DNA from: a virus
Virus record (IMG/VR): IMGVR_UViG_3300007072_000012
Location: 1-53,627 of that record
Reading direction: 5' to 3' (one strand)
Length of the DNA stretch: 53,627 nucleotides
Shown piece by piece: positions 11,948-53,627 of this stretch. The translations under genes were made by a program, and so were the position numbers. How positions within the stretch are numbered: position 1 is the first letter of the stretch; every line of letters starts with the position of its first letter. Under the pieces are notes generated by a model that was not told where the DNA came from, searched no databases, and saw nothing but the letters and a program-made list of their open reading frames with translations.

Positions 11948-13120
11948 TTACTTCTTACTCTCTTCATTGGTCTTGGTTTTATTACCCAAATTCCTCTGAG
12001 AGTCTTTGTTTATCCTCTGCCGTGAATCCTCACGGTGGAGTAAGGCAAAAGCTTTTATGTTTTTCGCTGCATTAATATCTCGATCATGGAAAGTGTTACA
12101 TTTAGCACATGTCCATTCTCTGTGTTGTAACTTTAGGTTTTTATTTATTTCTCCACAAACTGAACATATTTTGCTACTTGGTTTAAATTGTCCTATAAAT
12201 AAGAGATTTCTACCATACCATTCTGATTTATAAGTTAGCTGGCGTTTAAACTCATACCAACTAACATTACTTATAGCTTTGGCTAATTTATGATTTTTTA
12301 ACATATCTGTAATATTTAAATCTTCTAAGCAAATTGTTTGGTTCTCACGAATTAGCTTAGTAGACAATTTTTGCAAAAAATCATATTTTTGATTCGTAAT
12401 TTTTTCATAAATTTTTGCTACAATGAGTTTTTGTTTTTCTCTGTTTTTGCTTCCTTTCTGTTTTTTATTGAACATTCGTTGATGATGTTTTAGTCTTTTT
12501 TCTTGTTTATTAAAATATTTAGGATTTGTAATTTTATCACCATTTGAAGTTACACAAATATCTTTAAGTCCCAAATCTATACCAATTGTTGTATTGCTTA
12601 CAATGGGTGGTTTAGTGGGAATTGGTTCACCAGTATCAACTAGTATACAAGCAAAGTATTTATTTGTTTTTGTTTTTACAATGGTTGTAGTTTTAATCTT
12701 ACCTGTAAATTGTCTATGAAAAACACATTTAATATTTGGAATTTTCATAATGTGTAATAAACTATTATTAAAATCTACTTTTGTATATTGAGGGCATTGA
12801 AATGTTTGTTTTTTATTTTTAGATTTAAATACTGGAAATTTTGCTTTGTTATTATTAAAATTTGTGAAAGCATTATCAAGATTCATAAGAGCCATCATTA
12901 CTGCTTGACTATTTACTACTTTTAACCAGGGTAATTCCTGTTTTAATTTTGGTAGTTGTTTTTTAATTTCATAACAAGTGATTTTTTTGTTTTCTGCTTG
13001 GGTTTTAAGTCGTTGTTCTAGCCCCCAATTATAAATATATCTACAACACCCAAAATGCTGCCCTAAAAATTTCTTTTGTTTTTCTGTAGGATATATTTTA
13101 TATTTATAAGTTTTTAACAT
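11948..13120 (-). CDS. tnpB: TnpB RNA-guided nuclease (OrfB of IS605 family)
   Basis: A 390-aa protein. The N-terminal helix-turn-helix begins LKTYKYKIYPTEKQKKFL. The RuvC fold has its three acidic residues in GIDLGLKD (about residue 191), CLEDLNITDML (about 274) and DRDINAAKNI (about 343), with a four-cysteine zinc finger CSVCGE...CAKC between the last two. All key residues are present, so the nuclease could be active. TnpB cleaves DNA at sites set by an RNA made from the element's right end, favouring retention of the element. A guide RNA is expected to read out past 11930 towards lower coordinates. Confidence 0.93.
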   Translation of the reverse strand: MLKTYKYKIYPTEKQKKFLGQHFGCCRYIYNWGLEQRLKTQAENKKITCYEIKKQLPKLKQELPWLKVVNSQAVMMALMNLDNAFTNFNNNKAKFPVFKSKNKKQTFQCPQYTKVDFNNSLLHIMKIPNIKCVFHRQFTGKIKTTTIVKTKTNKYFACILVDTGEPIPTKPPIVSNTTIGIDLGLKDICVTSNGDKITNPKYFNKQEKRLKHHQRMFNKKQKGSKNREKQKLIVAKIYEKITNQKYDFLQKLSTKLIRENQTICLEDLNITDMLKNHKLAKAISNVSWYEFKRQLTYKSEWYGRNLLFIGQFKPSSKICSVCGEINKNLKLQHREWTCAKCNTFHDRDINAAKNIKAFALLHREDSRQRINKDSQRNLGNKTKTNEESKK

Positions 13121-32299: not shown

Positions 32300-32400
32300 G
32301 CACTAATGCCATTTGCTGCCATGCTGCAAGGCGATAGATGGCAGACTGCCATTGTCATACTTATTACAACCGTTTGCTAAATGGCAGCAAGGTAAACGTT
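32300..32400. repeat. Cluster of TGGCAG/CTGCCA inverted repeats
   Basis: The 100 bp carries several copies of TGCCA or CTGCCA and the complement, including TTGCTGCCAT (near 32312) and ATGGCAGCAA (near 32385), and a TGGCAGACTGCCA palindrome between. No ORF is present. The arrangement resembles an operator or a fold-back RNA, beside the first of the five RNA units. Confidence 0.45.
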
Positions 32401-32470: not shown

Positions 32471-32498
32471 TTGACTTTGGCATTCTCATCTGTACAAT
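32471..32498 (+). promoter_or_regulatory. Promoter of RNA unit A
   Basis: -35 TTGACT (32471-32476), -10 TACAAT (32493-32498), spacer 16. The stretch between is nearly the same as in the promoter at 38736-38763. Confidence 0.7.
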
Positions 32499-32504
32499 GT
32501 AGAC

Positions 32505-32580
32505 AGAAGACAACTTAATGGAGTAACGAACGGGGTGAAGGTAGGGTAGCCGTGAAGGTACAAGCGGGAAACTCTACAAC
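32505..32580 (+). ncRNA. RNA unit A of a five-copy family
   Basis: The unit follows its own promoter and has no meaningful ORF. It contains GACAACTTAA, GAACGGGGTGAAGGTAGGGT, AGCCGTGAAGGT and GCGGGAAACTCTA, nearly identical to unit C (38287-38362). The arms ACGG (32530-32533) and CCGT (32550-32553) can pair. Towards its end it runs into the opposing unit E, with GCGGG / CCCCGC arms that may form a shared terminator. Function unknown. Confidence 0.6.
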
Positions 32581-32596
32581 ACATTGTGCAATTGGA

Positions 32597-32675
32597 ATGG
32601 AATTCCCCGCTCACACATTCATGGATTCCCGATACGTTTCCCCATTCATTCCCAATCGTATTTAGTTGTCTTTTC
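32597..32675 (-). ncRNA. RNA unit E of the five-copy family
   Basis: Transcribed leftwards from the promoter at 32683-32711 and converging on unit A. It has GACAACTAAA, GAATGGGGAAACGTATCGGG and ATCCATGAATGT, close to unit B. The pairing arms are ATGG and CCAT, the changed but still complementary form of ACGG/CCGT in units A, C and D. The region cannot code (the frame after its ATG stops at codon 4). Confidence 0.55.
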
Positions 32676-32682
32676 TATTTGA

Positions 32683-32711
32683 ATTATACAATGAGAGATT
32701 CCCAAAGTCAA
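32683..32711 (-). promoter_or_regulatory. Promoter of RNA unit E, within inverted repeat
   Basis: -35 TTGACT (32706-32711), -10 TATAAT (32683-32688), spacer 17. GAGAGATTCCC (32693-32703) and GGGAATCTCTC (32713-32723) flank the -35, an arrangement repeated at the next two promoters upstream. Confidence 0.7.
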
Positions 32712-32730
32712 GGGGAATCTCTCATGATTT

Positions 32731-32940
32731 TTACTGTCTCACGGTTCTTACAAATTCATAACCTTCGCCATTAATGTCAATAGTGTAACCAGCATGGTCG
32801 TCATTCTTTGCCCACAATTCAAACACGCTAGAATCGTCATTGTCTTGAAGGATTACCATATCCTTGTCTTTCCACCCCGCAACGTGCATTCCTGATTCAC
32901 TAATCGGTTCTCGGTTCTGACTTCCACGTTTCGTAATCAT
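32731..32940 (-). CDS. Hypothetical protein, 69 aa
   Basis: I start this at MITKRGSQNREPISESG (32940) with AGAGAGGG upstream. A 69-aa acidic beta-rich protein (MHVAGWKDKDMVILQDNDDSSVFELWAKND). Monocistronic, ahead of the promoter of unit E. Function unknown. Confidence 0.55.
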   Translation of the reverse strand: MITKRGSQNREPISESGMHVAGWKDKDMVILQDNDDSSVFELWAKNDDHAGYTIDINGEGYEFVRTVRQ

Positions 32941-32966
32941 GATCAATCCCTCTCTTTCTTAATTAC

Positions 32967-32995
32967 ATTATACAATGAGAGATTCCCAAAGTCAA
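32967..32995 (-). promoter_or_regulatory. Promoter for 32940 gene, within inverted repeat
   Basis: -35 TTGACT (32990-32995), -10 TATAAT (32967-32972), spacer 17. The arms GAGAGATTCCC (32977-32987) and GGGAATCTCTC (32997-33007) enclose the -35. Confidence 0.7.
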
Positions 32996-33029
32996 GGGGA
33001 ATCTCTCACGATTTTGAAAAGTCATAAGT

Positions 33030-33308
33030 CTAACGGTTTTGTTCAATAAACGTCTTTAAAGCTTCCACGTGCATAGGAATAGTATTCATCAAGGGGTTAG
33101 ACTGACTCTTATGCTTGCTAGTCGTTACAGAATACTTGCTGATATTCTCATACCAAAAGCCACAATCAGAACAGACAAACAACGGCCAGTGATGGCCATA
33201 ACTGTATACAACATAAAGGTTTCCATCCTGTGCACCAAACAGGTTATTAGCCTTGAATGGCTTCCGTTCCTGCACAAACTTCCGAGCGTTCCGGTTTGCA
33301 ATCTTCAT
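33030..33308 (-). CDS. Hypothetical protein, 92 aa
   Basis: A 92-aa protein with a basic N terminus (MKIANRNARKFVQERKPFKA), a central aromatic beta part (NLYVVYSYGHHWPLFVCSDCGFWYEN) and a helical end. The CSDC pair hints at metal binding. Monocistronic. Function unknown. Confidence 0.55.
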   Translation of the reverse strand: MKIANRNARKFVQERKPFKANNLFGAQDGNLYVVYSYGHHWPLFVCSDCGFWYENISKYSVTTSKHKSQSNPLMNTIPMHVEALKTFIEQNR

Positions 33309-33333
33309 GTTTGATCCGTCCTTTCTTAATTAC

Positions 33334-33362
33334 ATTATACATGGGAGATTCCCCAAAGTCAA
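33334..33362 (-). promoter_or_regulatory. Promoter for 33308 gene, within inverted repeat
   Basis: -35 TTGACT (33357-33362), -10 TATAAT (33334-33339), spacer 17. Arms GAGATTCCCC (33345-33354) and GGGGAATCTC (33363-33372) flank the -35 as in the two promoters downstream. Confidence 0.7.
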
Positions 33363-33385
33363 GGGGAATCTCTCACATTTGTTAT

Positions 33386-33838
33386 TTATGCAATGTTTTG
33401 AAGAATTGATAGAGTATTGACAAGTTGGGAAACATTTTCACCGCGACTGTTGATAAATTCCAAGTCTTTCTTCAAAAGCTTAATAAACCGAGTTTTCCAA
33501 TTGCCACTAACAAACAAACTAAGATAAAAGGGTATTCCGTCTTCTGCTCGTTTTGTAATATTTTGAATTCGTCCTACCATTTTACTATTCCAATGTGCCC
33601 ACACAATCTTACCATTTTTATTTGATTCAACAATATCACCAAGAGAAATATGTGCAGAAACACTATACCGGCGAACGTAATCATACCCTGCCCAATCAAA
33701 GAAATAGCGAAGGGTAAACTTTCCAATTTGAATTGTATACTCTGTACACCAACTACTCTTTTGTCTTTTTGCCATAAATCCAAGTGCACGAAAGAACTTA
33801 GTTACATCTTTCACGTCACCATTAATTAGCTTAGGCAT
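33386..33838 (-). CDS. Hypothetical protein, 150 aa
   Basis: I start this at MPKLINGDVKDVTKFFRAL (33838) with AAAGGAG upstream. The product has WCTEYTIQIGKFTLRYFFDWAGYDYVRRYSV and HISLGDIVESNKNGKIVWAHWN, beta-rich and aromatic. Longer than its neighbours, own promoter at 33876-33904. Not recognised. Confidence 0.55.
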   Translation of the reverse strand: MPKLINGDVKDVTKFFRALGFMAKRQKSSWCTEYTIQIGKFTLRYFFDWAGYDYVRRYSVSAHISLGDIVESNKNGKIVWAHWNSKMVGRIQNITKRAEDGIPFYLSLFVSGNWKTRFIKLLKKDLEFINSRGENVSQLVNTLSILQNIA

Positions 33839-33875
33839 TTTCTTCTCCTTTGATCTTTGTTCTTCACACATTTAC

Positions 33876-33904
33876 AGTATACAAGTAAGACTGTCATTTG
33901 TCAA
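33876..33904 (-). promoter_or_regulatory. Promoter for 33838 gene
   Basis: -35 TTGACA (33899-33904), -10 TATACT (33876-33881), spacer 17. Confidence 0.7.
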
Positions 33905-33929
33905 GTTTAATTTATTACAAACTTTTTCC

Positions 33930-33958
33930 TTGACAAACAGACTTTCCACTTGTACAAT
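33930..33958 (+). promoter_or_regulatory. Promoter of RNA unit B
   Basis: -35 TTGACA (33930-33935), -10 TACAAT (33953-33958), spacer 17. Diverges from the 33876-33904 promoter. Confidence 0.7.
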
Positions 33959-33964
33959 AAAAAT

Positions 33965-34048
33965 AGAAAGACAATCGAATAGGTGAGAACTACCAGAATG
34001 GGGAAACGTATCGGGTATCCATGAACGTAAGAGCGGGAAACTCTATTT
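33965..34048 (+). ncRNA. RNA unit B of the five-copy family
   Basis: Starts just after its own -10 and carries GACAATCGAA, GAATGGGGAAACGTATCGGG, TATCCATGAACGT and GAGCGGGAAACTCTA. Arms ATGG and CCAT can pair, as in unit E, in place of ACGG/CCGT. A 23-codon frame from its ATG exists but is not kept in the other copies, so this is an RNA. It leads into the palindrome cluster at 34081-34260. Confidence 0.55.
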
Positions 34049-34080
34049 TAAAAAATCTAATCATTCCACAGTCGGACGGC

Positions 34081-34260
34081 ATGCCATTTTGACACGGTTG
34101 GCACCATGTCATTTTGACACGGTTTTATTGTCATAATGACATTAATGCCATTCGTTGCACATTGTGATCATGTCAAAATGATATGGTCATTCTGACATGA
34201 TTCGTAACTTGTAATAATCTTATCGTGCCATAATGACAATAGAGTTTGTCAAAATGGCGT
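34081..34260. repeat. Array of about eight TGTCA-NNN-TGACA-like palindromes
   Basis: The 180 bp has no ORF. Sites of the form TGYCA-WWW-TGRCA recur: ATGCCATTTTGACAC, ATGTCATTTTGACAC, TTGTCATAATGACAT, ATGTCAAAATGATAT, TGGTCATTCTGACAT, GTGCCATAATGACAA and TTGTCAAAATGGCG. Spaced dyads of this kind suit a DNA-binding protein (operator or replication-type iteron array); the RNA strands could also fold. Further copies lie near 38366 and 38394. Confidence 0.6.
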
Positions 34261-34366
34261 GTAGGATTATCAAATCTGTAAATTTGTTACAAATGGTAGT
34301 CTGTTACAATCCTTTCTCGGACCATAACAGACTACCACAACCTACATATTACATTCTACAGACTGA

Positions 34367-34627
34367 CTAACCATTTGTCAAGGTAAATTGTGGATAATTC
34401 CTAATTGGGCTATGGTTACAGTATTTTTGCACAAACTCCAAACTAATGCCCTTAGCCTTACAAGTTTCCACAAACGTTGTTGCGTCACAGTCTTCTTCCA
34501 AGTAAACCGTCTTACCCTTCTGATAAGAATAAGGCGTAATCTTATCAAGAATGCCTAACGTGACAAGCAATTCCCTTTTGACTGCCATCCACCCATGTCC
34601 TGCATCCGAGTAAAATTTAACTTTCAT
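34367..34627 (-). CDS. Hypothetical protein, 86 aa
   Basis: I start this at MKVKFYSDAGHGWMAVKRELL (34627). The opening VKFYSDAGHGWMAV and the later KTVYLEEDCDATTFVE recall small phage proteins in which a beta sheet faces a helix. It has a single promoter at 34653-34680. Function unknown. Confidence 0.6.
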   Translation of the reverse strand: MKVKFYSDAGHGWMAVKRELLVTLGILDKITPYSYQKGKTVYLEEDCDATTFVETCKAKGISLEFVQKYCNHSPIRNYPQFTLTNG

Positions 34628-34652
34628 GTTTTGATCCATCCTTTCTACTTAC

Positions 34653-34680
34653 ATTCTACAATTAACTTTAGCAATGTCAA
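34653..34680 (-). promoter_or_regulatory. Promoter for 34627 gene
   Basis: -35 TTGACA (34675-34680), -10 TAGAAT (34653-34658), spacer 16. Confidence 0.65.
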
Positions 34681-34862
34681 GAACCAAATATTACATTTCC
34701 AGTCCAGTACTCGAATACGTTAATGCCTGAATTGATATTTCTCCCTTTCCTCTGATTCACATATTCTCGTGCCTGATTGTACGTATCAAAATTCGCTACA
34801 AGTTCACTGTTATGAAACACATTAAAGGTCCGGTCATTGCTGCGTTTGATCGTGAAGTTCAT
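34677..34862 (-). CDS. Hypothetical protein, 61 aa
   Basis: A 61-aa protein, NFTIKRSNDRTFNVFHNSELVANF with beta-hairpin character, then NQAREYVNQRKGRN. Small and soluble. Own promoter at 34889-34917. Function unknown. Confidence 0.55.
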   Translation of the reverse strand: MNFTIKRSNDRTFNVFHNSELVANFDTYNQAREYVNQRKGRNINSGINVFEYWTGNVIFGS

Positions 34863-34888
34863 CTTTCTTCCCTCTCTTTCTTAATTAC

Positions 34889-34917
34889 ATTATACAGAGA
34901 GAGATTTTAAATGTCAA
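34889..34917 (-). promoter_or_regulatory. Promoter for 34862 gene
   Basis: -35 TTGACA (34912-34917), -10 TATAAT (34889-34894), spacer 17. Confidence 0.75.
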
Positions 34918-34919
34918 GA

Positions 34920-35069
34920 ACTATTATTACAAATTTAAATCCTTGATATGATTAGACTTAGCTTTGTTGCGCGGGAAAGGTAGAAATTACAACCTTTATA
35001 CTTATTCTAAAGGCAATACGTGAGACTACCCTATTATATTAGGATAATCTCACGATTTGCATTATTTAA
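34920..35069. other. Non-coding gap with two hairpins
   Basis: No ORF is seen. The gap holds AAAGGT/ACCTTT arms (about 34976-35001) and a longer fold-back of GTGAGACTACCCTA with its near complement TTAGGATAATCTCAC (about 35020-35053), the latter a likely transcription terminator for the 35070 gene. Confidence 0.4.
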
Positions 35070-35327
35070 TTAAGTATTAAACACCTTTACATACTCGTTC
35101 TTAGTCAATAGCCTAACACCAAACGTCTCAGCATTATTATACTTCATCGCATCACGCCAGCAACAACCGTCACTCAAACTAATAAGAATATTAGAATCTC
35201 CCCGCATAACTATTACACCCTTGTTTGCTGCAACCAGATGATTCACGATAACACCCACTTGCCCAAATTCCATTTTTGCAGGACAAACTAAAACTTCACT
35301 TTGTGTTCCGTATAATGCGCAAGCCAT
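35070..35327 (-). CDS. GQVGVI-family small protein (paralogue of 47408 gene)
   Basis: An 85-aa protein with EFGQVGVIVN, GVIVMRGDSNILISLSDGCCWRD and a hydrophobic end. The gene at 47408-47656 has the matching GQVGVIT...GRVVMKIHDDMLVLLDNGDFWR. The two are therefore distant copies of one beta-rich fold on opposite arms of the window. Function unknown. Confidence 0.6.
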   Translation of the reverse strand: MACALYGTQSEVLVCPAKMEFGQVGVIVNHLVAANKGVIVMRGDSNILISLSDGCCWRDAMKYNNAETFGVRLLTKNEYVKVFNT

Positions 35328-35354
35328 TGTTTTTTCCCTACCTTTCTTATTTAC

Positions 35355-35382
35355 ATTGTACAGGCAACTTGTAATAAGTCAA
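35355..35382 (-). promoter_or_regulatory. Promoter for 35327 gene
   Basis: -35 TTGACT (35377-35382), -10 TACAAT (35355-35360), spacer 16. Confidence 0.7.
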
Positions 35383-35386
35383 GAAA

Positions 35387-35845
35387 TTAATCCCTAAAAG
35401 GACCAAGAGCAGAATTTACTTCACTCAAATCATGTTGTATCTTTTCTCGCTCTGCCAGCAGGTTTTCTACCTGTTCCACGGTGTAATAATCTGGCAGGTT
35501 AATAGGAGCGTACAGGTTTTTAATGATAGCATTGTCAAGACGGGCCACATACACCGGAATCTCTTGATAGACGCAACCGCAGGCACCTTCTACCTGTTCC
35601 CAAGTTTTAACTGTCCAGCCAAGGGAATAGTCAGAATTATGTTTATAAATCTGCACATTGACCGGCAGGTTATTGAATTTTGGCAGCAATTCCTTAACCG
35701 CCAAAAGAAGGCTTCCGTCTGCCTTCAAAACCTTTTTTCCCACGTATCCGGCAAAAAATTCCTGCATCTTGTCATTGACAATCTTTGCGTAGTCAATGCA
35801 CCGATTGTACGCTTTCACCTTTGCAGCCAGTTCGTTCTTGTTCAT
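35387..35845 (-). CDS. Hypothetical protein, 152 aa
   Basis: A 152-aa protein: a helical N terminus (NELAAKVKAYNRCIDYAKIVNDKMQEF), a beta-rich centre (YSLGWTVKTWEQVEG, CGCVYQEIPVYVARL) and a helical coiled end (TVEQVENLLAEREKIQHDLSEV). The helix-sheet-helix layout suggests an oligomeric binding protein. Own promoter. Not recognised. Confidence 0.55.
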   Translation of the reverse strand: MNKNELAAKVKAYNRCIDYAKIVNDKMQEFFAGYVGKKVLKADGSLLLAVKELLPKFNNLPVNVQIYKHNSDYSLGWTVKTWEQVEGACGCVYQEIPVYVARLDNAIIKNLYAPINLPDYYTVEQVENLLAEREKIQHDLSEVNSALGPFRD

Positions 35846-35871
35846 GTTTTGATCCGTCCTTTCTTAATTAC

Positions 35872-35900
35872 ATTGTACAGACTGAAAAGGTAAAAGTCAA
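35872..35900 (-). promoter_or_regulatory. Promoter for 35845 gene
   Basis: -35 TTGACT (35895-35900), -10 TACAAT (35872-35877), spacer 17. Confidence 0.7.
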
Positions 35901-35910
35901 GAATTATTTA

Positions 35911-36189
35911 TTACAAAATATCTGGCAAATTATTCTCACAAATTCCACCATGTTTTTTAATTAATTCATGAATTACACTAACTGGCACGTAACCATAAAC
36001 AGTCATACAAGGATTTTCTGGAGTTTCTGCATAAGGCAACAACAATTCTTCTACCTGATTAGGGTATCCCAATTCTACTTCTGTATAAGGCCCAACATCA
36101 TACCTTGGTGTACAGTAATGCGTACTAGACGCTTGTATGCTTACTGAAAATCCATCGTTGAACACGGTTATTTTGTTTAGCTCTTTCAT
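35911..36189 (-). CDS. Hypothetical protein, 92 aa
   Basis: I start this at MKELNKITVFNDGFSVSIQ (36189). A beta-rich 92-aa protein with YDVGPYTEVELGYPNQVEELLLPYAE and a helix VSVIHELIKKHGGI. The VFNDGFSVSIQAS opening is familiar from small phage proteins, function unknown. Confidence 0.6.
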   Translation of the reverse strand: MKELNKITVFNDGFSVSIQASSTHYCTPRYDVGPYTEVELGYPNQVEELLLPYAETPENPCMTVYGYVPVSVIHELIKKHGGICENNLPDIL

Positions 36190-36211
36190 GTTTCCCACCT
36201 TTCTTAATTAC

Positions 36212-36239
36212 ATTACACGGCTAACTTCAAGAATGTCAA
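36212..36239 (-). promoter_or_regulatory. Promoter for 36189 gene
   Basis: -35 TTGACA (36234-36239), -10 TGTAAT (36212-36217), spacer 16. Confidence 0.65.
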
Positions 36240-36242
36240 GAA

Positions 36243-36449
36243 TTATCTAACATAAATCCTAGTCTCAACCGTTTGACAATCCAGTACCTTAAACTTCTCT
36301 TGCAGCATAGCCTTTATGGTATCTTCGGAAATATTCCCCATTGTCTGTATCGTTACCTTAAACTCAATAACCTTATGGTCTTGCATATGACAATTGTTGT
36401 CTGTCACAGGCTGACCGTTGTTTGCATACAGAATCTTAACCTTATCCAT
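36243..36449 (-). CDS. Hypothetical protein, 68 aa
   Basis: I start this at MDKVKILYANNGQPVTDN (36449, ATG; an upstream TTG is less likely). A single beta-alpha-beta unit (KVIEFKVTIQTMGNISEDTIKAMLQEKFKVLDCQTVETRIYV). Monocistronic. Function unknown. Confidence 0.55.
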   Translation of the reverse strand: MDKVKILYANNGQPVTDNNCHMQDHKVIEFKVTIQTMGNISEDTIKAMLQEKFKVLDCQTVETRIYVR

Positions 36450-36475
36450 GATCAAATCCTCTCTTTCTTAATTAC

Positions 36476-36504
36476 ATTATACAAATGAGAATACCATTTG
36501 TCAA
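36476..36504 (-). promoter_or_regulatory. Promoter for 36449 gene
   Basis: -35 TTGACA (36499-36504), -10 TATAAT (36476-36481), spacer 17. Confidence 0.75.
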
Positions 36505-36773
36505 ATGGTAACTAGGAATTTTCCAAGATTAATTGTATTGTCTTTGTAATCAAGGCCAGAATCTTTCAGAATTCGTTCTGTCTGCTTTGTGGCACTAATG
36601 GCAAAGGTTGTGCCAGAAATGCCCACATTCTGAATTGAAACAGCAAAATCATGAGCATAGTCGTCAGGTTCAACGACAATGGCAGTCAGTCCATAGTATC
36701 CAACCGACCGATACTCCAACACGTCAAGATTCAGAAGACTACAAAACTCGGTCAGCAATTCTTGCCTTGACAT
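36501..36773 (-). CDS. Hypothetical protein, 90 aa
   Basis: A 90-aa alpha/beta protein (QELLTEFCSLLNLDVLEYRSVG, LTAIVVEPDDYAHDFAVSIQ). Own promoter at 36801-36829. Not recognised. Confidence 0.55.
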   Translation of the reverse strand: MSRQELLTEFCSLLNLDVLEYRSVGYYGLTAIVVEPDDYAHDFAVSIQNVGISGTTFAISATKQTERILKDSGLDYKDNTINLGKFLVTI

Positions 36774-36800
36774 GGTTTTGATCCTCTCTTTCTTAATTAC

Positions 36801-36829
36801 ATTATATGGACAACAAGGGTAAATGTCAA
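36801..36829 (-). promoter_or_regulatory. Promoter for 36773 gene
   Basis: -35 TTGACA (36824-36829), -10 TATAAT (36801-36806), spacer 17. Confidence 0.75.
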
Positions 36830-36834
36830 GTTTA

Positions 36835-37455
36835 TTATTTATTTTTCCTGTTACCGTGAAAAAGAATCTCTATCGTTTTTCCGCTCACAATACGGCAAAT
36901 ATTGCATGTTTTACAGTTACCTTGACACAGGAAATTATTGCCGGTTGGCTGTTTTACAGGTTTAAATCTATTTGTATCATTCTTATACCTTTCGCTGTCT
37001 CCGCTCAAGTTAAGGCTAACACCTAGTGCAATCAATTGTGACAAGTCAAGGTCAATTCTGGCAGTATACCCGTAAATTTTCCAGCCATACGTGATTAATC
37101 TAGAAGCAAAGAAAGCAAAGAGATTAACCTGTGCCTGATTAACAAAATCTCCTGCCTCATTGAATCGCAATACCTTATCTTTTCCCTGTGTCTTACGTCT
37201 ATTCCTTTGCAATTCCAATTCGTCCGCACATTTCAATACATCTTTTAGTGTAGCTTTTTTCCACCATTTCATTTGTTTAAGTCTATAGGGTAAAACCTGT
37301 TTATACATTTCTTCGGCATGTAAAGCATAGCAATTATTTGGGCATTGACACAATCCTAAAGCTTTAGACGGGCAGCATTTAGCAGGGGTAAAATTAATAA
37401 TTACAAATGGCACCTTAGTATTTCCAATTGAGTAAGGCAAGCCATTTGCATTCAT
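36835..37455 (-). CDS. gp88-like cysteine-rich phage protein
   Basis: A 206-aa protein resembling the phage gp88 family. It has FTPAKCCPSKALGLCQCPNNCYALHAEEM near the N terminus, LRFNEAGDFVNQAQ in the middle (compare the FRWHDSGDF of relatives), YGYTARIDLD, and a second Cys group CQGNCKTCNICR near the end. The cysteine layout could hold a metal cluster. Family function is not established. Own promoter at 37481-37509. Confidence 0.6.
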   Translation of the reverse strand: MNANGLPYSIGNTKVPFVIINFTPAKCCPSKALGLCQCPNNCYALHAEEMYKQVLPYRLKQMKWWKKATLKDVLKCADELELQRNRRKTQGKDKVLRFNEAGDFVNQAQVNLFAFFASRLITYGWKIYGYTARIDLDLSQLIALGVSLNLSGDSERYKNDTNRFKPVKQPTGNNFLCQGNCKTCNICRIVSGKTIEILFHGNRKNK

Positions 37456-37480
37456 CTTTGATCCTCTCTTTCTTAATTAC

Positions 37481-37509
37481 AGTATACAGATGGGAATACT
37501 GTTTGTCAA
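37481..37509 (-). promoter_or_regulatory. Promoter for 37455 gene
   Basis: -35 TTGACA (37504-37509), -10 TATACT (37481-37486), spacer 17. Confidence 0.7.
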
Positions 37510-37841
37510 GAGTATTTCTTGAAATTCTTGACAAATTCCTCATGTAGCTTTTTCCCGCTGTCCGGTATAACCGTTGCCAGTTTAGGTTCTGTCTTAGCCA
37601 GTTCGGTTATCTCATTCGATGTCTTTTTGCCAGTAATGCCATTAGAGACTAGGGCAATATAGGCAATCGTACCCCACACCTTATCATTGTAATTGTCACT
37701 CTTCTTTAACTCGAAAATACGCACAGGATTAACCGATAGATTGCCAGCAGGTTTTCGGCCTTTACCAGTGTGAGGATTTTTGTCATAGTTCTTAATTACT
37801 CCCAGTTTTTCCATTTCGCTGAAAAGCCATTCTGAAAACAT
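37506..37841 (-). CDS. Hypothetical protein, 111 aa
   Basis: I start this at MFSEWLFSEMEKLGVIKNYD (37841), with GAGGGA upstream. A soluble 111-aa protein; the middle has RKPAGNLSVNPVRIFELKKS and the end KLHEEFVKNFKKYS. Basic and helical. Function unknown. Confidence 0.55.
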   Translation of the reverse strand: MFSEWLFSEMEKLGVIKNYDKNPHTGKGRKPAGNLSVNPVRIFELKKSDNYNDKVWGTIAYIALVSNGITGKKTSNEITELAKTEPKLATVIPDSGKKLHEEFVKNFKKYS

Positions 37842-37866
37842 GGTTCTTTCCCTCATTCCTATTTAC

Positions 37867-37895
37867 AGTATAAAGATGAAACTGTCATTTGTCAA
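37867..37895 (-). promoter_or_regulatory. Promoter for 37841 gene
   Basis: -35 TTGACA (37890-37895), -10 TATACT (37867-37872), spacer 17. Confidence 0.7.
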
Positions 37896-37901
37896 GAATT
37901 A

Positions 37902-38171
37902 TTACTTCAATTGCGGTCCTTTCTCCAAAAGCGTTACCATCGTATTAAATGGGAAAGTAGATTCTTCATGCCCAATATAGGGTATTACGCTTGTATAGTT
38001 GTTTCCCCCATAAGAAAAGTCTGCCACGTGAATATATGGCCGAATTGTAGTAACCTCTTTCCGCTCTGTATTGATTTTGATTACTGTACAATGGGAATAT
38101 GGATACTCGGCAAGTGTTACGATATCCCCAAGGTTTAGAAACTTTGCTTTTACTCCGCTTAGTGTCTTCAT
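37902..38171 (-). CDS. Hypothetical protein, 89 aa
   Basis: An 89-aa beta-rich protein (KAKFLNLGDIVTLAEYPYSHCTVIKINTERKEVTTIRPYIHV) likely a small barrel. Own promoter at 38199-38227. Function unknown. Confidence 0.55.
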   Translation of the reverse strand: MKTLSGVKAKFLNLGDIVTLAEYPYSHCTVIKINTERKEVTTIRPYIHVADFSYGGNNYTSVIPYIGHEESTFPFNTMVTLLEKGPQLK

Positions 38172-38198
38172 GTTTTTGATCCTCTCTTTCTTAATTAC

Positions 38199-38227
38199 AT
38201 TCTACGGGCATACTTGCCATTTGTCAA
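38199..38227 (-). promoter_or_regulatory. Promoter for 38171 gene
   Basis: -35 TTGACA (38222-38227), -10 TAGAAT (38199-38204), spacer 17. Confidence 0.65.
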
Positions 38228-38252
38228 GTTTAATTTATTACAATCTTTTTTC

Positions 38253-38280
38253 TTGACTTTGGTATTCTCGTTTGTACAAT
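38253..38280 (+). promoter_or_regulatory. Promoter of RNA unit C
   Basis: -35 TTGACT (38253-38258), -10 TACAAT (38275-38280), spacer 16. Confidence 0.7.
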
Positions 38281-38286
38281 GTAAAT

Positions 38287-38362
38287 AGAGACAGACAACT
38301 TAACGCAGTACCGAACGGGGTGAAGGTAGGGTAGCCGTGAAGGTCGGAGCGGGAAACTCTAT
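38287..38362 (+). ncRNA. RNA unit C of the five-copy family
   Basis: The best-preserved copy with unit A: GACAACTTAACGCAGTACCG, AACGGGGTGAAGGTAGGGTA, GCCGTGAAGGT and GAGCGGGAAACTCTA. ACGG (38314-38317) can pair with CCGT (38335-38338) and GAG with CTC near the end. It leads directly into TGTCA-type palindromes. No ORF. Confidence 0.6.
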
Positions 38363-38363
38363 C

Positions 38364-38412
38364 GTGTCATATTGACATGATATGAAAAAATTACCATGTC
38401 GTTTTGACATGG
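38364..38412. repeat. TGTCA-type palindromes with 11-bp hairpin
   Basis: GTGTCATATTGACATGA (from about 38365) is followed by ATTACCATGTC-GTTTT-GACATGGTAAT (about 38389-38415), an 11-bp perfect hairpin. It lies between unit C and the converging gene at 38439 and may end transcription from both sides, besides matching the dyads at 34081-34260. Confidence 0.55.
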
Positions 38413-38438
38413 TAATCCTTGCTACCTATTCAATAATA

Positions 38439-38711
38439 CTACAATATTACCTGCCCAACATGCACCTTATTAGTAATATCAATAATGCTCAACGTAGCGT
38501 ACACCTTGCTATCGTCCTTTTTCAATTGATTAGTCAATCCAACAAACTCCCAAAAGGTTTCCCAAGCTTTCTCTTCGGAATCATGCACAATAACCGTGCC
38601 ACTAAACATGCGGCGAATTGCTCTAGTTATTGCATCCTCATTAAGAGTAGCAAGCACAAGTCGGAAAATTTCGCTTCGCTTTGTCGTTGTTTCCATTCCC
38701 TTAGTATTCAT
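38439..38711 (-). CDS. Hypothetical protein, 90 aa
   Basis: I start this at MNTKGMETTTKRSEIFRLVL (38711). A 90-aa protein with a helical first half (RLVLATLNEDAITRAIRRMF) and a beta end (VYATLSIIDITNKVHVGQVIL). Own promoter at 38736-38763. Function unknown. Confidence 0.55.
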   Translation of the reverse strand: MNTKGMETTTKRSEIFRLVLATLNEDAITRAIRRMFSGTVIVHDSEEKAWETFWEFVGLTNQLKKDDSKVYATLSIIDITNKVHVGQVIL

Positions 38712-38735
38712 CTTTGATCCTCTCTTTCTATTTGA

Positions 38736-38763
38736 ATTGTACAAACGAGAATGCCAAAGTCAA
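38736..38763 (-). promoter_or_regulatory. Promoter for 38711 gene
   Basis: -35 TTGACT (38758-38763), -10 TACAAT (38736-38741), spacer 16. Its spacer is almost the same as in RNA unit A. Confidence 0.7.
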
Positions 38764-38797
38764 GGAATTAGTTAAAGAAAATTATTACAGAAAAGAA

Positions 38798-38825
38798 TTG
38801 ACTTTTGAATTCTTGTCTTTATAAT
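38798..38825 (+). promoter_or_regulatory. Promoter for the UvrD-like helicase
   Basis: -35 TTGACT (38798-38803), -10 TATAAT (38820-38825), spacer 16. Confidence 0.75.
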
Positions 38826-38846
38826 GTGAGTAAAGGGAGAATGAAA

Positions 38847-40391
38847 ATGAAGATCAAGAAATTCAGCAAGCTTCAAGAGAACGGTTTTGATGCGGTTTCT
38901 AACTCCGCTGAAAACCTTTTCTTGTCTGCCGTTGCTGGTAGCGGTAAGACGACTTGGCTAGTTGAAGCTTGCAAGCGTTTGCCCTTGTCCGTCAAGGCTG
39001 TTTTTTGTGCCTTCAATAAGCATATTGCGGATGAATTGCGTGGTAAGCTTCCCAAGAATGTTCCTGCCGCTACGCTGCATAGCCTTGGCTTTGCCACTAT
39101 TCGCCAGAATCTTGCTAATGCTGTTCATGTTTGTGAGGATAAGACTGACCGAATTTTGGAACAGTTCATTAAGGTTGAATCAGAAGAATACAAGTTTAAT
39201 GCTGCACCTATCAAGAAACTGGTTAGCCTTGCCAAGAATAACTACATGGTGAAACCGGAAAAGGCTGACTGGGATAGCCTAATTGAACAGTATGGTGTGA
39301 TTCTCCCTAACGGTTCTTTCGATTGGACTGCTCTTAATGAGACGTATGCTTTGGCTACTGCAAGGCAGTATAAGGCAAAGCTTTATAACAAATTCTTTAA
39401 GCGTGAAGTAGAATTGCCCGTCATTGATTTCGATGATATGCTTTTCTATCCGGCAATTGAAGGTTGGAATATTGCTAAAAATCTCAATTGTCTCTTTGTT
39501 GACGAATCACAGGATTTGAATGCGGTTCAGATTAAGCTTTTGGAAACTGCCAATAAGAATGGTACTCGCATCATTTGCGTAGGTGACTCTGCACAGGCTA
39601 TCTATGGTTTCAGGGGTGCAAGCATTGAAAGCATTGATAACCTTACTAACCTGTTTAACATGAAGACGTTGCCGTTGTCGGTTACCTATCGTTGCAGTAA
39701 GGCAGTAGTCGAATACGCTAAACGATACGTGCCTGAAATTGAAGCTAGGGAAGGTGCGCCGGAAGGTAATGTTTCGGAAATTAGTTTGGCTAATTTAAAG
39801 GTTGAAAGCTTCCGGCATGGTGATTTGGTTGTTTGCCGCACTAATGCTCCGCTTGTCGGTTTGGCTTATGCTTTGCTCCGTTTGAATAGTGGCATTAAAT
39901 TCCGCATTCAAGGCGTGGAATTGGGGCAGGAATTGGGCAGACTTGTGGGTTATCTTACCTTCAAGAATAACCTGCAAGACGTTGATATGGCTGGATTTAT
40001 GAAGGCATTGTCCGTCTATGAACAGCATATGACCGAGAAATACATGCAACTTAAGGCTAACGGAGAAAAATATATTGCGGAATTGCAGGATAAGCTTGAA
40101 GTTATTTCCCTTGTCGCTGGTAATTCCAAAACCATTTCGGGAATCAAAATTAACCTGTGCAAGCTTTTCGCGGATAGTGACGACCGAAATTGTGTTTTGC
40201 TGTCGTCTATCCATCGTGCAAAAGGTTTGGAAGTCCTTGCGGAAGATAATACTTGTATCGTTCTTCGGACTGACTTGCTGCCACATCCTAAAGCTACACG
40301 AGACTGGGAATTGATTCAAGAGTCTAACCTTATCTATGTGGCTTATACCCGCGCCAAGTCTAATCTGGTTTTGGTGCATAAGGAAAAATAA
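38847..40391 (+). CDS. UvrD/Rep-type superfamily 1 DNA helicase
   Basis: An ATP-driven DNA helicase. From ATG 38847 (RBS GGGAG, 7 nt) it is 514 aa; the frame is open to 38805 but that lies over the promoter. Motifs in order: I AVAGSGKTTWLVEA (about residue 29), II LFVDESQDLNAVQ (about 220), III VGDSAQAIYGFRGA (about 245), IV LSVTYRCSKAVVEY (about 275), V SSIHRAKGLE (about 460) and VI IYVAYTRAKSNLVLVH at the end. It may serve replication or repair. Codon use is slightly richer in G+C than the neighbours. Confidence 0.92.
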   Translation: MKIKKFSKLQENGFDAVSNSAENLFLSAVAGSGKTTWLVEACKRLPLSVKAVFCAFNKHIADELRGKLPKNVPAATLHSLGFATIRQNLANAVHVCEDKTDRILEQFIKVESEEYKFNAAPIKKLVSLAKNNYMVKPEKADWDSLIEQYGVILPNGSFDWTALNETYALATARQYKAKLYNKFFKREVELPVIDFDDMLFYPAIEGWNIAKNLNCLFVDESQDLNAVQIKLLETANKNGTRIICVGDSAQAIYGFRGASIESIDNLTNLFNMKTLPLSVTYRCSKAVVEYAKRYVPEIEAREGAPEGNVSEISLANLKVESFRHGDLVVCRTNAPLVGLAYALLRLNSGIKFRIQGVELGQELGRLVGYLTFKNNLQDVDMAGFMKALSVYEQHMTEKYMQLKANGEKYIAELQDKLEVISLVAGNSKTISGIKINLCKLFADSDDRNCVLLSSIHRAKGLEVLAEDNTCIVLRTDLLPHPKATRDWELIQESNLIYVAYTRAKSNLVLVHKEK

Positions 40392-40406
40392 AAAAATATT
40401 TTTTTC

Positions 40407-40434
40407 TTGACTTTTTAATTTTTTGATGTATAAT
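40407..40434 (+). promoter_or_regulatory. Promoter for 40461 gene
   Basis: -35 TTGACT (40407-40412), -10 TATAAT (40429-40434), spacer 16, in a very A/T-rich stretch. Confidence 0.7.
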
Positions 40435-40460
40435 TACAATATAGAAAGTGAGGATTTGAA

Positions 40461-40604
40461 ATGGATGAAATGATCAGAGAACGAAAATTGCTTCGCCCCT
40501 GTTGGAGTTGGGAATTCAGGGGTAAAGCAGATAAGAAAATTAATCGTCGGATTGTGCGACATAGAATGAAACAAAGAGACAGAAAAAATAACTTGACAGA
40601 TTGA
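40461..40604 (+). CDS. Hypothetical basic protein, 47 aa
   Basis: A small complete frame (MDEMIRERKLLRPCWSWEF...RRIVRHRMKQRDRKNNLTD) with GAGG ahead of the ATG and its own promoter. It is highly Arg/Lys-rich, so nucleic-acid or ribosome binding is possible. Function unknown. Confidence 0.5.
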   Translation: MDEMIRERKLLRPCWSWEFRGKADKKINRRIVRHRMKQRDRKNNLTD

Positions 40605-40690
40605 ACTAAAACAGGGGGTCGGAGTTAGAGATTTAATGTGGTAAACAATCCACAGTCTCGAAACGATGTATCCCCTTATTTTTTAAAAAA
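40605..40690 (+). terminator. Structured 3' end and terminator
   Basis: GGGG (about 40614) and CCCC (about 40672), GAGA and TCTC, TGTGG and CCACA nest to form a long hairpin ending in TTATTTTTT. It probably terminates the 40461 transcript; the internal structure is more elaborate than a plain terminator needs. Confidence 0.5.
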
Positions 40691-40711
40691 AATAAAAAAT
40701 ATTTTTTTCTT

Positions 40712-40740
40712 TCCCTTAAAATATTTTAGGGTCTTTTTCC
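40712..40740. terminator. Bidirectional terminator hairpin
   Basis: CCCTTAAAATATTTTAGGG is a near-perfect fold-back with T-rich flanks on both sides (TCTTTTT on plus, long A/T run on minus). It can end the 40461 transcript and RNA unit D. Confidence 0.55.
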
Positions 40741-40806
40741 CCCTCATTTCCCCACTCACGGATACCCTAACTTCACCCCGTTCGGTACTGCATTAGGTTG
40801 TCTGTC
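40735..40806 (-). ncRNA. RNA unit D of the five-copy family
   Basis: Transcribed leftwards from 40816-40844. It has GACAACCTAATGCAGTACCG, AACGGGGTGAAGTTAGGGTA and TCCGTGA, so the first two thirds match units A and C. Arms ACGG and CCGT are kept. After CCGTGA it diverges (GTGGGGAAATGAGGGGG), lacking the GAGCGGGAAACTC end. It leads to the terminator at 40712-40740. Confidence 0.5.
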
Positions 40807-40815
40807 TCTATTTAC

Positions 40816-40844
40816 ATTGTACAGGCAAAAGTATCATTTGTCAA
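40816..40844 (-). promoter_or_regulatory. Promoter of RNA unit D
   Basis: -35 TTGACA (40839-40844), -10 TACAAT (40816-40821), spacer 17. Confidence 0.7.
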
Positions 40845-40868: not shown

Positions 40869-40896
40869 TTGACTTTTTAAATTTTAGCTGTACAAT
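40869..40896 (+). promoter_or_regulatory. Promoter of the tRNA-like RNA
   Basis: -35 TTGACT (40869-40874), -10 TACAAT (40891-40896), spacer 16. Confidence 0.7.
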
Positions 40897-40920: not shown

Positions 40921-41090
40921 GGGGGTGTAGCCTAGAGGACAGGCGATACTTGCGTATTATGGCAAGTGAGTATAATGACTGCGCTAACAGCATTATATAA
41001 ACTGCGATAATGCAAAAAACAGGTAACTAATAGCTTTAGCGAGTTATTACTATCTGCGTATAGACGCTGGTTCGATTCCAGCCACCCCCT
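40921..41090 (+). ncRNA. tRNA-like RNA with about 110-nt insertion replacing the anticodon arm
   Basis: The ends fold like a tRNA: acceptor GGGGGTG (40921-40927) with CACCCCC (41083-41089), D-arm GCCT (40930-40933) / AGGC (40941-40944) with a GG-containing loop, and T-arm GCTGG-TTCGATT-CCAGC (41066-41082). Instead of an anticodon arm there are hairpins: ACTTGC/GCAAGT (40948-40967), GCATTAT/ATAATGC (40990-41013) and GGTAACT/AGTTATT (41022-41048). TGCG occurs four times, in loops or joints. No CCA is encoded, unlike the two other tRNAs here. It lacks the group I intron core, so splicing is not obvious. Confidence 0.6.
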
Positions 41091-45548: not shown

Positions 45549-45841
45549 GCCGGAATGGCGGAACAGGAAGACGCTACGGACTTTTTAATGGGTCGCTTAT
45601 AGGGAAACCTATAAGTAAGTAACCTGTCAAATTCGGTAAACGCTGAAATGCCAATACCGAGCTAACTGCACTAAGTGCAGGAATGTGTAGAGACTAAACG
45701 GCAGGAATCTAAACCTAGAGATAGGCATGATTAAGATATAGTCCAGACCACAAACCTAACAGGGTAGCGAAAGCTATAGTGGTAGGTAAAATCCGTTCTC
45801 CCCAAAAGGAGGTGTGGGTTCAAATCCCACTTCCGGCACCA
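45549..45841 (+). tRNA. tRNA-Leu (anticodon UAA) interrupted by a group I intron
   Basis: Exon 1 begins GCCGGAATGGCGGAACAGG with a long leucine-type D-arm and reaches ACGGACT (to 45582). Exon 2 from 45787 reads TAAAATCCGT, then a long variable arm (TCTCC...GGAG), T-arm GTGGG-TTCAAAT-CCCAC, TTCCGGC, A and CCA. Joined, the anticodon loop is CTTAAAA, anticodon TAA. The intron lies at the 5' side of the anticodon; the T-run makes the 5' junction ambiguous by a base or so. Confidence 0.85.
45583..45786 (+). other. Group I intron (204 nt) in tRNA-Leu
   Basis: The core elements are visible: GTAGAGACTAAACGGCAG (P7/R-like region, about 45688-45705) and AAGATATAGTCC (S-like region, about 45734-45745), the same signature as in T-even phage introns. 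The intron follows a U and ends in G, as the class requires. Too short to encode a nuclease itself; two HNH genes lie just downstream on the other strand. Confidence 0.8.
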
Positions 45842-46743: not shown

Positions 46744-46900
46744 GGGCAGTCTGATGACGTGAGGAATTACGACCACTAGTAGCAAAGTAGCCTAGTACAA
46801 AGTTGGCTGAATTTCCTTGGTCGGAACGTTCAGAACTTAACTAGGTGAAAGGCCATACTAGGTAGTTCTCCATTGAGGGTCTGATTCCCTCATGCCCTTA
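46744..46900 (+). ncRNA. Structured RNA with tRNA-like 5' and 3' ends
   Basis: It begins GGGCAGTCTGATGACGTGAGG and ends with GAGGG-TCTGATT-CCCTC followed by ATGCCC. So GGGCA can pair with TGCCC, next to a T-arm-like stem-loop. Inside, CGACCA (about 46773) can pair with TGGTCG (about 46819), and GAACT...CTAG with CTAG...AGTTC further on. There is no ORF of note. It could be a degraded tRNA or an unrelated regulatory RNA feeding into the gene at 46933. Confidence 0.45.
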
Positions 46901-53116: not shown

Positions 53117-53145
53117 TTGACAAAGTAGTTTGTGGTCTGTATAAT
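53117..53145 (+). promoter_or_regulatory. Promoter for 53173 gene
   Basis: -35 TTGACA (53117-53122), -10 TATAAT (53140-53145), spacer 17. Confidence 0.75.
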
Positions 53146-53172
53146 AACAATTAGAAAGGATGGCAAACTAAA

Positions 53173-53627
53173 ATGACTCTTAATGAACTTAAGAAGATTT
53201 TTCCTTATGCCACAAATGACACGTGGCATCGACACAGTAATGGTGGTGGTTGGGTGCAGAAGACAGCAGAAGTTGCTGATACAGCATATGTAGGTGTTAG
53301 TGCACTAGTTTGTGATAATGCACGAGTTTGTGATAATGCACGAGTTTGTGATAATGCACAAGTTTATGGTGATGCACAAGTTTGTGGTGATGCACAAGTT
53401 TGTGATAATGCACGAGTTTATGGTAATGCACGAGTTTATGGTAATGCACGAGTTTGTGGTAATGCACGAGTTTGTGGTGATGCACAAGTTTGTGGTAATG
53501 CAGTAGTTTATGGTAATGCACGAGTTTATGGTGATGCACAAGTTTATGGTGATGCACAAGTTTATGGTAATATGCAACTTATTGATAATAAGTGGGATTT
53601 CTCTCCCCTTAGTATCATTGGTTGCAA
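53173..53627 (+). CDS. Hexapeptide-repeat (left-handed beta-helix) protein, 3' end outside window
   Basis: The protein begins MTLNELKKIFPYATNDTWHR, then from about residue 30 (KTAEVADTAYVGVSA) carries about 18 hexapeptides such as VCDNAR, VYGDAQ, VCGNAR and VYGNAR. These are the Val-x-[GD]-[ND]-Ala-x turns of a left-handed beta-helix. The C-terminal part starts with MQLIDNKWDFSPLSIIG and runs off the window. Phage proteins of this shape are common but unassigned. Confidence 0.8.
   Translation, partial: MTLNELKKIFPYATNDTWHRHSNGGGWVQKTAEVADTAYVGVSALVCDNARVCDNARVCDNAQVYGDAQVCGDAQVCDNARVYGNARVYGNARVCGNARVCGDAQVCGNAVVYGNARVYGDAQVYGDAQVYGNMQLIDNKWDFSPLSIIGC
53306..53570 (+). repeat. 18-bp tandem coding repeats
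   Basis: An 18-bp unit (GCACGAGTTTGTGATAAT and variants) is repeated about 14 times, encoding the hexapeptides of the 53173 gene. The near-identical DNA units could recombine and vary in number. Confidence 0.85.

Follow-up and report, generated by a model that had tools for sequence, protein, structure and literature searches.

The 53,627-nucleotide IMG/VR virus record IMGVR_UViG_3300007072_000012, which we analyzed at its full length and call the window, holds five related units within 8.3 kb. Each unit lies behind a strong, near-consensus promoter of the sigma-70 type, and the conserved part of each unit is about 70–80 nt long. A preliminary description of the window, made from its letters alone, had proposed that these units form a family of small RNAs, and we located all five. 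The window is 99.989% identical to positions 134,806–188,433 of the 194,473-bp IMG/VR contig IMGVR_UViG_3300022554_000002 (5 mismatches and 1 gap across 53,628 aligned positions), so no within-population variation can be obtained by comparing the two. We refer to the longer sequence as the contig.

The promoters were found with a promoter scan, and the units by alignment and with models. Unit A is on the plus strand at 32508–32577, behind TTGACT-16-TACAAT at 32471–32498. Unit E is on the minus strand at 32597–32671 and converges on A, such that the 3' ends of their S2 helices (see below) are about 20 bp apart; its promoter is TTGACT-17-TATAAT at 32683–32711. Units B (33969–34046) and C (38293–38362) are both on the plus strand, behind TTGACA-17-TACAAT (33930–33958) and TTGACT-16-TACAAT (38253–38280), respectively. 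C is at the minimum of the GC skew and near a change in the main gene direction. Unit D is on the minus strand at 40726–40803, with its promoter, TTGACA-17-TACAAT, at 40816–40844. All five promoters are thus present, as described previously, but the units are at similar rather than identical distances from them: the gap between the -10 element and AGACAA is 9 nt in A, 11 in E, 10 in B, and 12 in both C and D.

There are two types of units. The core of type I (A, C, and D) is GAACGGGGUGAAGxUAGGGUAxCCGUGA, and the core of type II (B and E) is GAAUGGGGAAACGUAUCGGGxAUCCAUGA. The 3' ends do not follow this division exactly: AGCGGGAAACUCUA is found in A, B, and C, so B combines a type II core with a type I-like 3' end, while E has a variant and D has a different end that is hard to align. 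The purine content of the units is 65–69%.

With unit C and its promoter as the query, A, D, and B were found with E-values of 2.8e-35, 1.9e-27, and 3.4e-17. The match to unit E was confined to the promoter part (8.2e-6); E is linked to the family through B, with 29 of 30 core bases identical. The similarity between A and C starts at the promoter and stops at S2. As a leave-out test for B and E, we built a promoter-free model (R2) from A, C, and D alone. R2 recovers B at an E-value of 9.4e-6 and E at 1.5e-4, and the following match is at only 3.9. On the contig, R2 lists exactly the five units at E-values of up to 10. A model built from all five members (R1) lists the same five plus five weak matches that touch only its promoter/leader part. 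The preliminary description had looked to further copies with covarying helices for support, and this covariance scan of the contig did not produce a sixth copy. Judging from these comparisons, the relatedness of the five units is far above chance.

We then consider the structure of the putative RNAs. Helix S1 is formed by ACGG/CCGU in A, C, and D (32530–32533/32550–32553 in A) and by AUGG/CCAU in B and E. As noted in the preliminary description, this change keeps the pairing: S1 is paired in all five units, and the two types differ in both bases of one pair. When we shuffled the alignment columns, a fully paired covarying helix of at least 4 pairs appeared in 1 of 300 shuffles. If one unpaired sequence was allowed, two covarying helices appeared in 23/300 shuffles and one in 94/300. 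Because just one pair differs, and always in the same way between type I and type II, the change in S1 may be a single event. Overall, S1 is moderately supported by the sequences.

A second helix, S2, was overlooked in the preliminary description. Its strands are GUAGGGU/ACUCUAC in A (32541–32547/32571–32577), GUAGGGU/ACUCUAU in C, UUAGGGU/ACCCUAA in D, AUCGGGU/ACUCUAU in B, and AUCGGGA/AUUCCAU in E. This gives 32 paired cells out of 35, and the outermost pair is GC in A, GU in C, UA in D, and AU in both B and E. Unit D had been singled out as lacking a matching 3' end, but its tail carries ACCCUAA, which forms 7 Watson-Crick pairs with UUAGGGU; none of 5,000 single-base shuffles of the 40-nt tail did as well. 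Because the tail of D is otherwise hard to align, D provides the best argument for S2. With G-U pairs allowed, the corresponding fractions of tail shuffles are 0.043 for D, 0.049 for A, 0.082 for C, 0.93 for B, and 0.95 for E; with Watson-Crick pairs only, they are 0.25 for A, 0.74 for C, 0.82 for E, and 1.0 for B. We consider S2 to be plausible from these alignments. S1 and S2 would interlock, with a 2-nt junction, and might possibly form an H-type pseudoknot, which is a hypothetical structure.

The promoters of the units are not unusual for this region. A simple rule lists 94 promoter-like sites in the whole contig, of which 43 are at contig 160–190 kb. Among the 38 sites in that region that do not belong to the units, 32 are followed by a frame of 30 codons or more that is preceded by a stretch resembling a ribosome site (by a loose rule). 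By the same loose rule, B, C, D, and E open no frame, and A is tagged with a 37-codon GTG frame. No reading frame is common to the five units, and they lack the AAGAAAGG(N)AGG leader that is usual for the genes of the neighboring promoters. A and E had been thought to share a terminator, but we found no U-tract terminator between them, including in a terminator scan. By eye, an imperfect hairpin that contains one of the exact TGNCANNNTGNCA palindromes (34107–34119; see below) and is followed by TTTTATTG lies past B, and may terminate it; also by eye, D is followed by a hairpin and, further on, by a stretch rich in U. The terminator scan lists neither of these hairpins.

To our searches, the family appears to be isolated. 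No family in Rfam 15 reached its gathering score on any unit, in agreement with the statement that no named RNA family has this consensus. At E-values of up to 5, there was only a weak match of mir-281 (20 bits, with a cut-off of 70) overlapping A/E, and none on B, C, or D. The sequence evidence supports a promoter-driven, apparently non-coding family of five members with no Rfam match. In IMG/VR, a GAAC/GAAT core with a variable gap identified the five copies themselves and 6 other contigs, which lack, by eye, the promoter and the flanking unit sequence. A looser pattern with AGACAA identified our copies and 11 further loci (4 of identical sequence), all of which are within stop-free frames of 126–3064 amino acids. 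Core-only patterns in IMG/VR found our copies alone. A strict pattern for the full unit had 3 matches in 84,980 species genomes (GTDB), all inside long stop-free frames on the matched strand (284, 394, and 769 amino acids). The earlier idea that the units mimic a host RNA gains nothing from this one scan with a strict pattern. With blastn at E-values of up to 10, searches with C and B against INPHARED and with C against PLSDB gave 4, 3, and 3 records, all short and with E-values of 4 or worse. Exact-pattern scans overlook diverged relatives, so at the sensitivity used, we see no apparent relative in IMG/VR, GTDB genomes, INPHARED phages, or (for C only) PLSDB plasmids. Nor did we find a published account of this RNA family in the literature that we searched, which was largely non-subscription.

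The contig is a large phage, based on matches to terminase (contig 131.2–131.8 kb) and, among the window's proteins, to RNA ligase/tail-fibre attachment protein, ribonucleotide reductase, and a UvrD-type helicase. An identical terminase (TerL) is present on a 31-kb contig from metagenome 3300007072, which is from the Dewar Creek DC9 hot spring (64.7 °C, pH 7.94, according to the accessible text of PMC8098120). Because of this origin of the identical terminase, the host is probably thermophilic, and we infer that the window's own sample came from the same kind of site. Protein scans with the helicase, the RNA ligase, and TerL identified no close phage relative beyond these two contigs, and no INPHARED phage was matched in a megablast search with 20 kb or a blastn search with 1.9 kb of the sequence. 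At 53141–53627, the window has repeated segments that recur at contig 188–194 kb, and its final 63 bases are also the contig's first 63; this is probably an assembly break point.

Three of the units are in non-coding gaps that also hold clusters of palindromes. We counted 8 exact TGNCANNNTGNCA sites in the window, where 0.91 would be expected, and 11 in the contig, as compared to 2 for the reversed pattern. Five of the exact sites form a cluster (34082–34238) whose start is about 35 nt downstream of B. C is followed after 3 nt by two palindromes of this family (38365–38409), of which one is exact and the other has one mismatch to TGTCANNNTGACA. Another exact site (32339–32351) precedes A's promoter by about 120 nt. 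These palindromes might be operator, initiator, or terminator sites. A coarse count of frames with 150 codons or more places almost all of them on the minus strand at contig 30–150 kb, with both strands used at 150–180 kb and mostly the plus strand from 180 kb to the contig's end and at 0–20 kb.

Our preferred but tentative interpretation is that these are five paralogous phage genes for small RNAs that act early and in trans by titrating a host factor. Transcription of each unit would start from a separate, strong promoter of host type, which belongs to the class seen at the neighboring and presumably early genes, and would give a short, purine-rich, untranslated RNA with helix S1 and possibly S2. 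With several strong copies, the RNA would be abundant early in infection and would occupy a host factor, for which an RNA-binding protein is the most likely candidate; the two subtypes might serve two targets or two variants of one. We favor a trans-acting role on a host factor because of the copy number, the strength of the promoters, and the lack of a convincing target in the phage. That one RNA family has five strong promoters points to a stoichiometric job, such as titration. Also, the promoters match those of neighboring genes, yet the units lack the usual leader. There is a precedent in the Racrs, which the accessible text of PMC10651486 describes as RNA mimics that phages express from a strong native promoter and that act in a dose-dependent way. 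The family is a compact and testable object.

Several observations weigh against this interpretation. No RNA-binding partner is known for the units, and their position in the GC skew would fit a role in replication equally well. A competing helix, CUUA/UAGG, uses the same UAGG as S2 and scores about as well: the observed number of paired cells was reached by 6/500 shuffles for S1 with S2 and by 5/500 for S1 with CUUA/UAGG, and the observed covariation score by 9/500 and 5/500. The observed number of two-sided pair changes was reached by 200/500 and 148/500 shuffles, so covariation alone is not decisive. The 3 unpaired cells of S2 (out of 35) are in B and E, and S2 depends on one alignment (A1); in A2 and A3, which are from other MAFFT runs, the core gap and the 3' strand are shifted. 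The z-scores for nested folds are -1.80 (A), 1.56 (E), 0.69 (B), 0.13 (C), and -1.66 (D), and the numbers of shuffles, out of 200, that fold equally well are 8, 191, 152, 108, and 10. Predicted energies at 65 °C are -5.1 kcal/mol for A, -1.2 for E, -0.7 for B, -5.3 for C, and -5.5 for D, as compared to -16.9 for the phage's tRNA-Lys. By these predictions, nested folding gives the units no clear advantage over shuffled sequences, and the units alone would be nearly open at 65 °C. A more elaborate proposal, which we consider unlikely, places the five promoter-driven units, as a previously unknown RNA family of two subtypes, around the replication origin of a hot-spring phage; the RNAs would form the pseudoknot only when bound to their protein at around 65 °C, and would thereby seize a host RNA-binding or defense protein early in infection or else prime replication.

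The main rivals to titration are a role linked to the replication origin and base-pairing with host mRNAs; both are doubtful, and we consider each to be about half as probable as titration. If the units mark the phage's origin region, then the transcripts of B and C would enter the palindrome clusters and act as primers, R-loop formers, or copy-control RNAs; in that case, the family would inform our view of how replication begins in large phages. Along the contig, the cumulative GC skew reaches its minimum at 172–174 kb (window 37.2–39.2 kb), which is the site of C, and all five units are within about 6 kb of the midpoint of this minimum. The excess of palindromes, their location just past B and C, the purine-rich units, and the UvrD-type helicase gene that adjoins C also fit with an origin. 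On the other hand, the main gene direction changes at the same place, and gene direction alone can flip the skew; strong promoters are concentrated in this region anyway; and purine-rich RNA is common in thermophiles. Furthermore, D has no nearby palindrome, the nearest one past E's 3' end is about 250 nt away, A and E converge, and D and E read in the opposite direction from the other units. As for pairing, the units could be multicopy regulators of host mRNAs that resemble LhrC1-5. The copies have long, conserved, and weakly structured cores, there is a five-copy precedent in LhrC (accessible text of PMC4132741), and three predicted phage gene starts recur in the best 15 for four of the five units. 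We compared duplex energies at 248 predicted phage gene starts to those for 5 single-base shuffles of each unit. A, B, C, and D were within the range of their shuffles, which leaves the antisense role that had been suggested unsupported for phage mRNAs at these starts. Only E exceeded its shuffles, and marginally (-36.8 versus a best of -35.5). A and C have the same best site, at window 39006; this is a start that lies out of frame within the helicase gene.

Two simpler explanations seem far less probable. The units could be duplicated promoter DNA, along with the initially transcribed region, with no function of their own. The phage's promoters are themselves repeated, but the similarity between units continues beyond the promoter for about 70 nt, no other promoter of the contig is followed by such a core according to the promoter-free model, and the sequence differences preserve the pairing in S1; we give this idea little credence. 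It is just as improbable that the units are mini-genes, with short peptides that start at the [AG]TG of CC[AG]TGA. This GTG or ATG is preserved in all five units. In one frame, VxAGNS is common to A, B, and C, and the seven differences between B and E are distributed as 1, 1, and 5 across codon positions 1, 2, and 3 (P = 0.045, for one of three frames). So, the earlier claim that no conserved peptide is encoded holds for the five units jointly, but not without qualification for these subsets. The frames are 37 (A), 3 (E), 23 (B), 12 (C), and 27 (D) codons long: E reaches a TGA 3 codons in, and D's peptide is unrelated. Third positions show no excess of differences in A/C, A/D, or C/D. The cores of the two types differ by a net 1 nt (the matches are 28 and 29 nt), and therefore the types do not have a common frame upstream of the start. 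A normal ribosome site is absent by eye. The peptide from B had no match in INPHARED, no PHROG, and one Pfam match below the cut-off; in the contig, it matched only B and E, with an internal TGA in E. A peptide reading across the whole family is not supported by the sequences.

Of the known systems, the Racrs are nearest in layout to our units: in the accessible text of PMC10651486, these solitary repeat units are likewise short, non-coding, and viral, are often directly behind a predicted promoter, and have no link to cas genes. Our units are also solitary, right behind a promoter, and not tied to cas genes; we found no cas genes among the window proteins that we scanned, which are a minority of the contig's proteins. 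They differ in having five dispersed copies of two subtypes. We know of no CRISPR repeat with the sequence of the units. The copies of LhrC in Listeria have their own promoters. LhrC binds the lapB mRNA via CU-rich sites, whereas our units are purine-rich and phage-encoded. As in our family, there are five copies of one small RNA (accessible text of PMC4132741). We did not find a ToxN-like toxin among the neighboring proteins that were scanned (part of the neighbors: the helicase, a GP88-like protein, and unknowns). Nor is there a ToxI-like tandem array: the units are dispersed on both strands, and the best 20 of at least 60 families of direct repeats include no tandem copies within a unit. 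ToxI itself is a tandem array of ~36-nt repeats, and its protein-binding form is an H-type pseudoknot, which is only hypothesized for our units. Some phages do mimic antitoxin RNAs (accessible text of PMC10651486).

The known phage small RNAs, such as OOP, sar, c4, and PreS, act on phage or host genes, and according to the accessible part of a 2025 review (PMC12197685), they are mostly single, antisense, or linked to Hfq. These four have a named target or a link to Hfq, while our units are five paralogs for which we found no antisense target. In the transcription-dependent origins of the T4 type, a promoter's transcript enters the origin region. Here, there are five similar RNAs in both orientations, and only the skew and the palindromes point to an origin. 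The put antiterminator RNA of HK022 lies between an early promoter and the genes that it reads. We rejected this type of antitermination because the gene that comes next after A, B, C, or D is in antisense orientation; E is followed about 0.4 kb on by a gene on the same strand, but this gene has its own promoter.

The window contains other RNA-like features. A tRNA gene at 40921–41090 (+), with its own promoter at 40869–40896, has a structured insertion of 101 nt in the anticodon loop (fold z of -5.3). ARAGORN with introns allowed reports it as Ser(GCT), and by eye, Arg(GCG) is also possible; it escapes ARAGORN's default settings and Rfam's gathering score. The gene for tRNA-Leu(TAA) at 45549–45841 (+) is split by a 204-nt group I intron (RF00028, 61.5 bits). 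At 46744–46898 (+), an RNA-like stretch (fold z of -4.0) starts at about the expected transcription start of its promoter. It has a tRNA-like closing stem (GGGCA/UGCCC), a T-arm-like hairpin, and an arm of about 110 nt in place of the anticodon arm, and is not called by ARAGORN or Rfam. A stable hairpin at 40613–40676 (+), followed by UUAUUUUUU, lies behind a 47-codon frame (fold z of -3.3 for 40605–40690).

Finally, the window has a TnpB-type gene at 11948–13120 (-). The scaffold of TnpB's guide RNA (reRNA) is encoded at the 3' end of tnpB. Here, about 19 kb separate the gene from the closest unit, and there is no unit-like match at the gene, so we rejected the idea that the units are TnpB guide RNAs. 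Its best plasmid relatives are 45–50% identical, with the first in methanogens, and its catalytic motifs are apparently intact.

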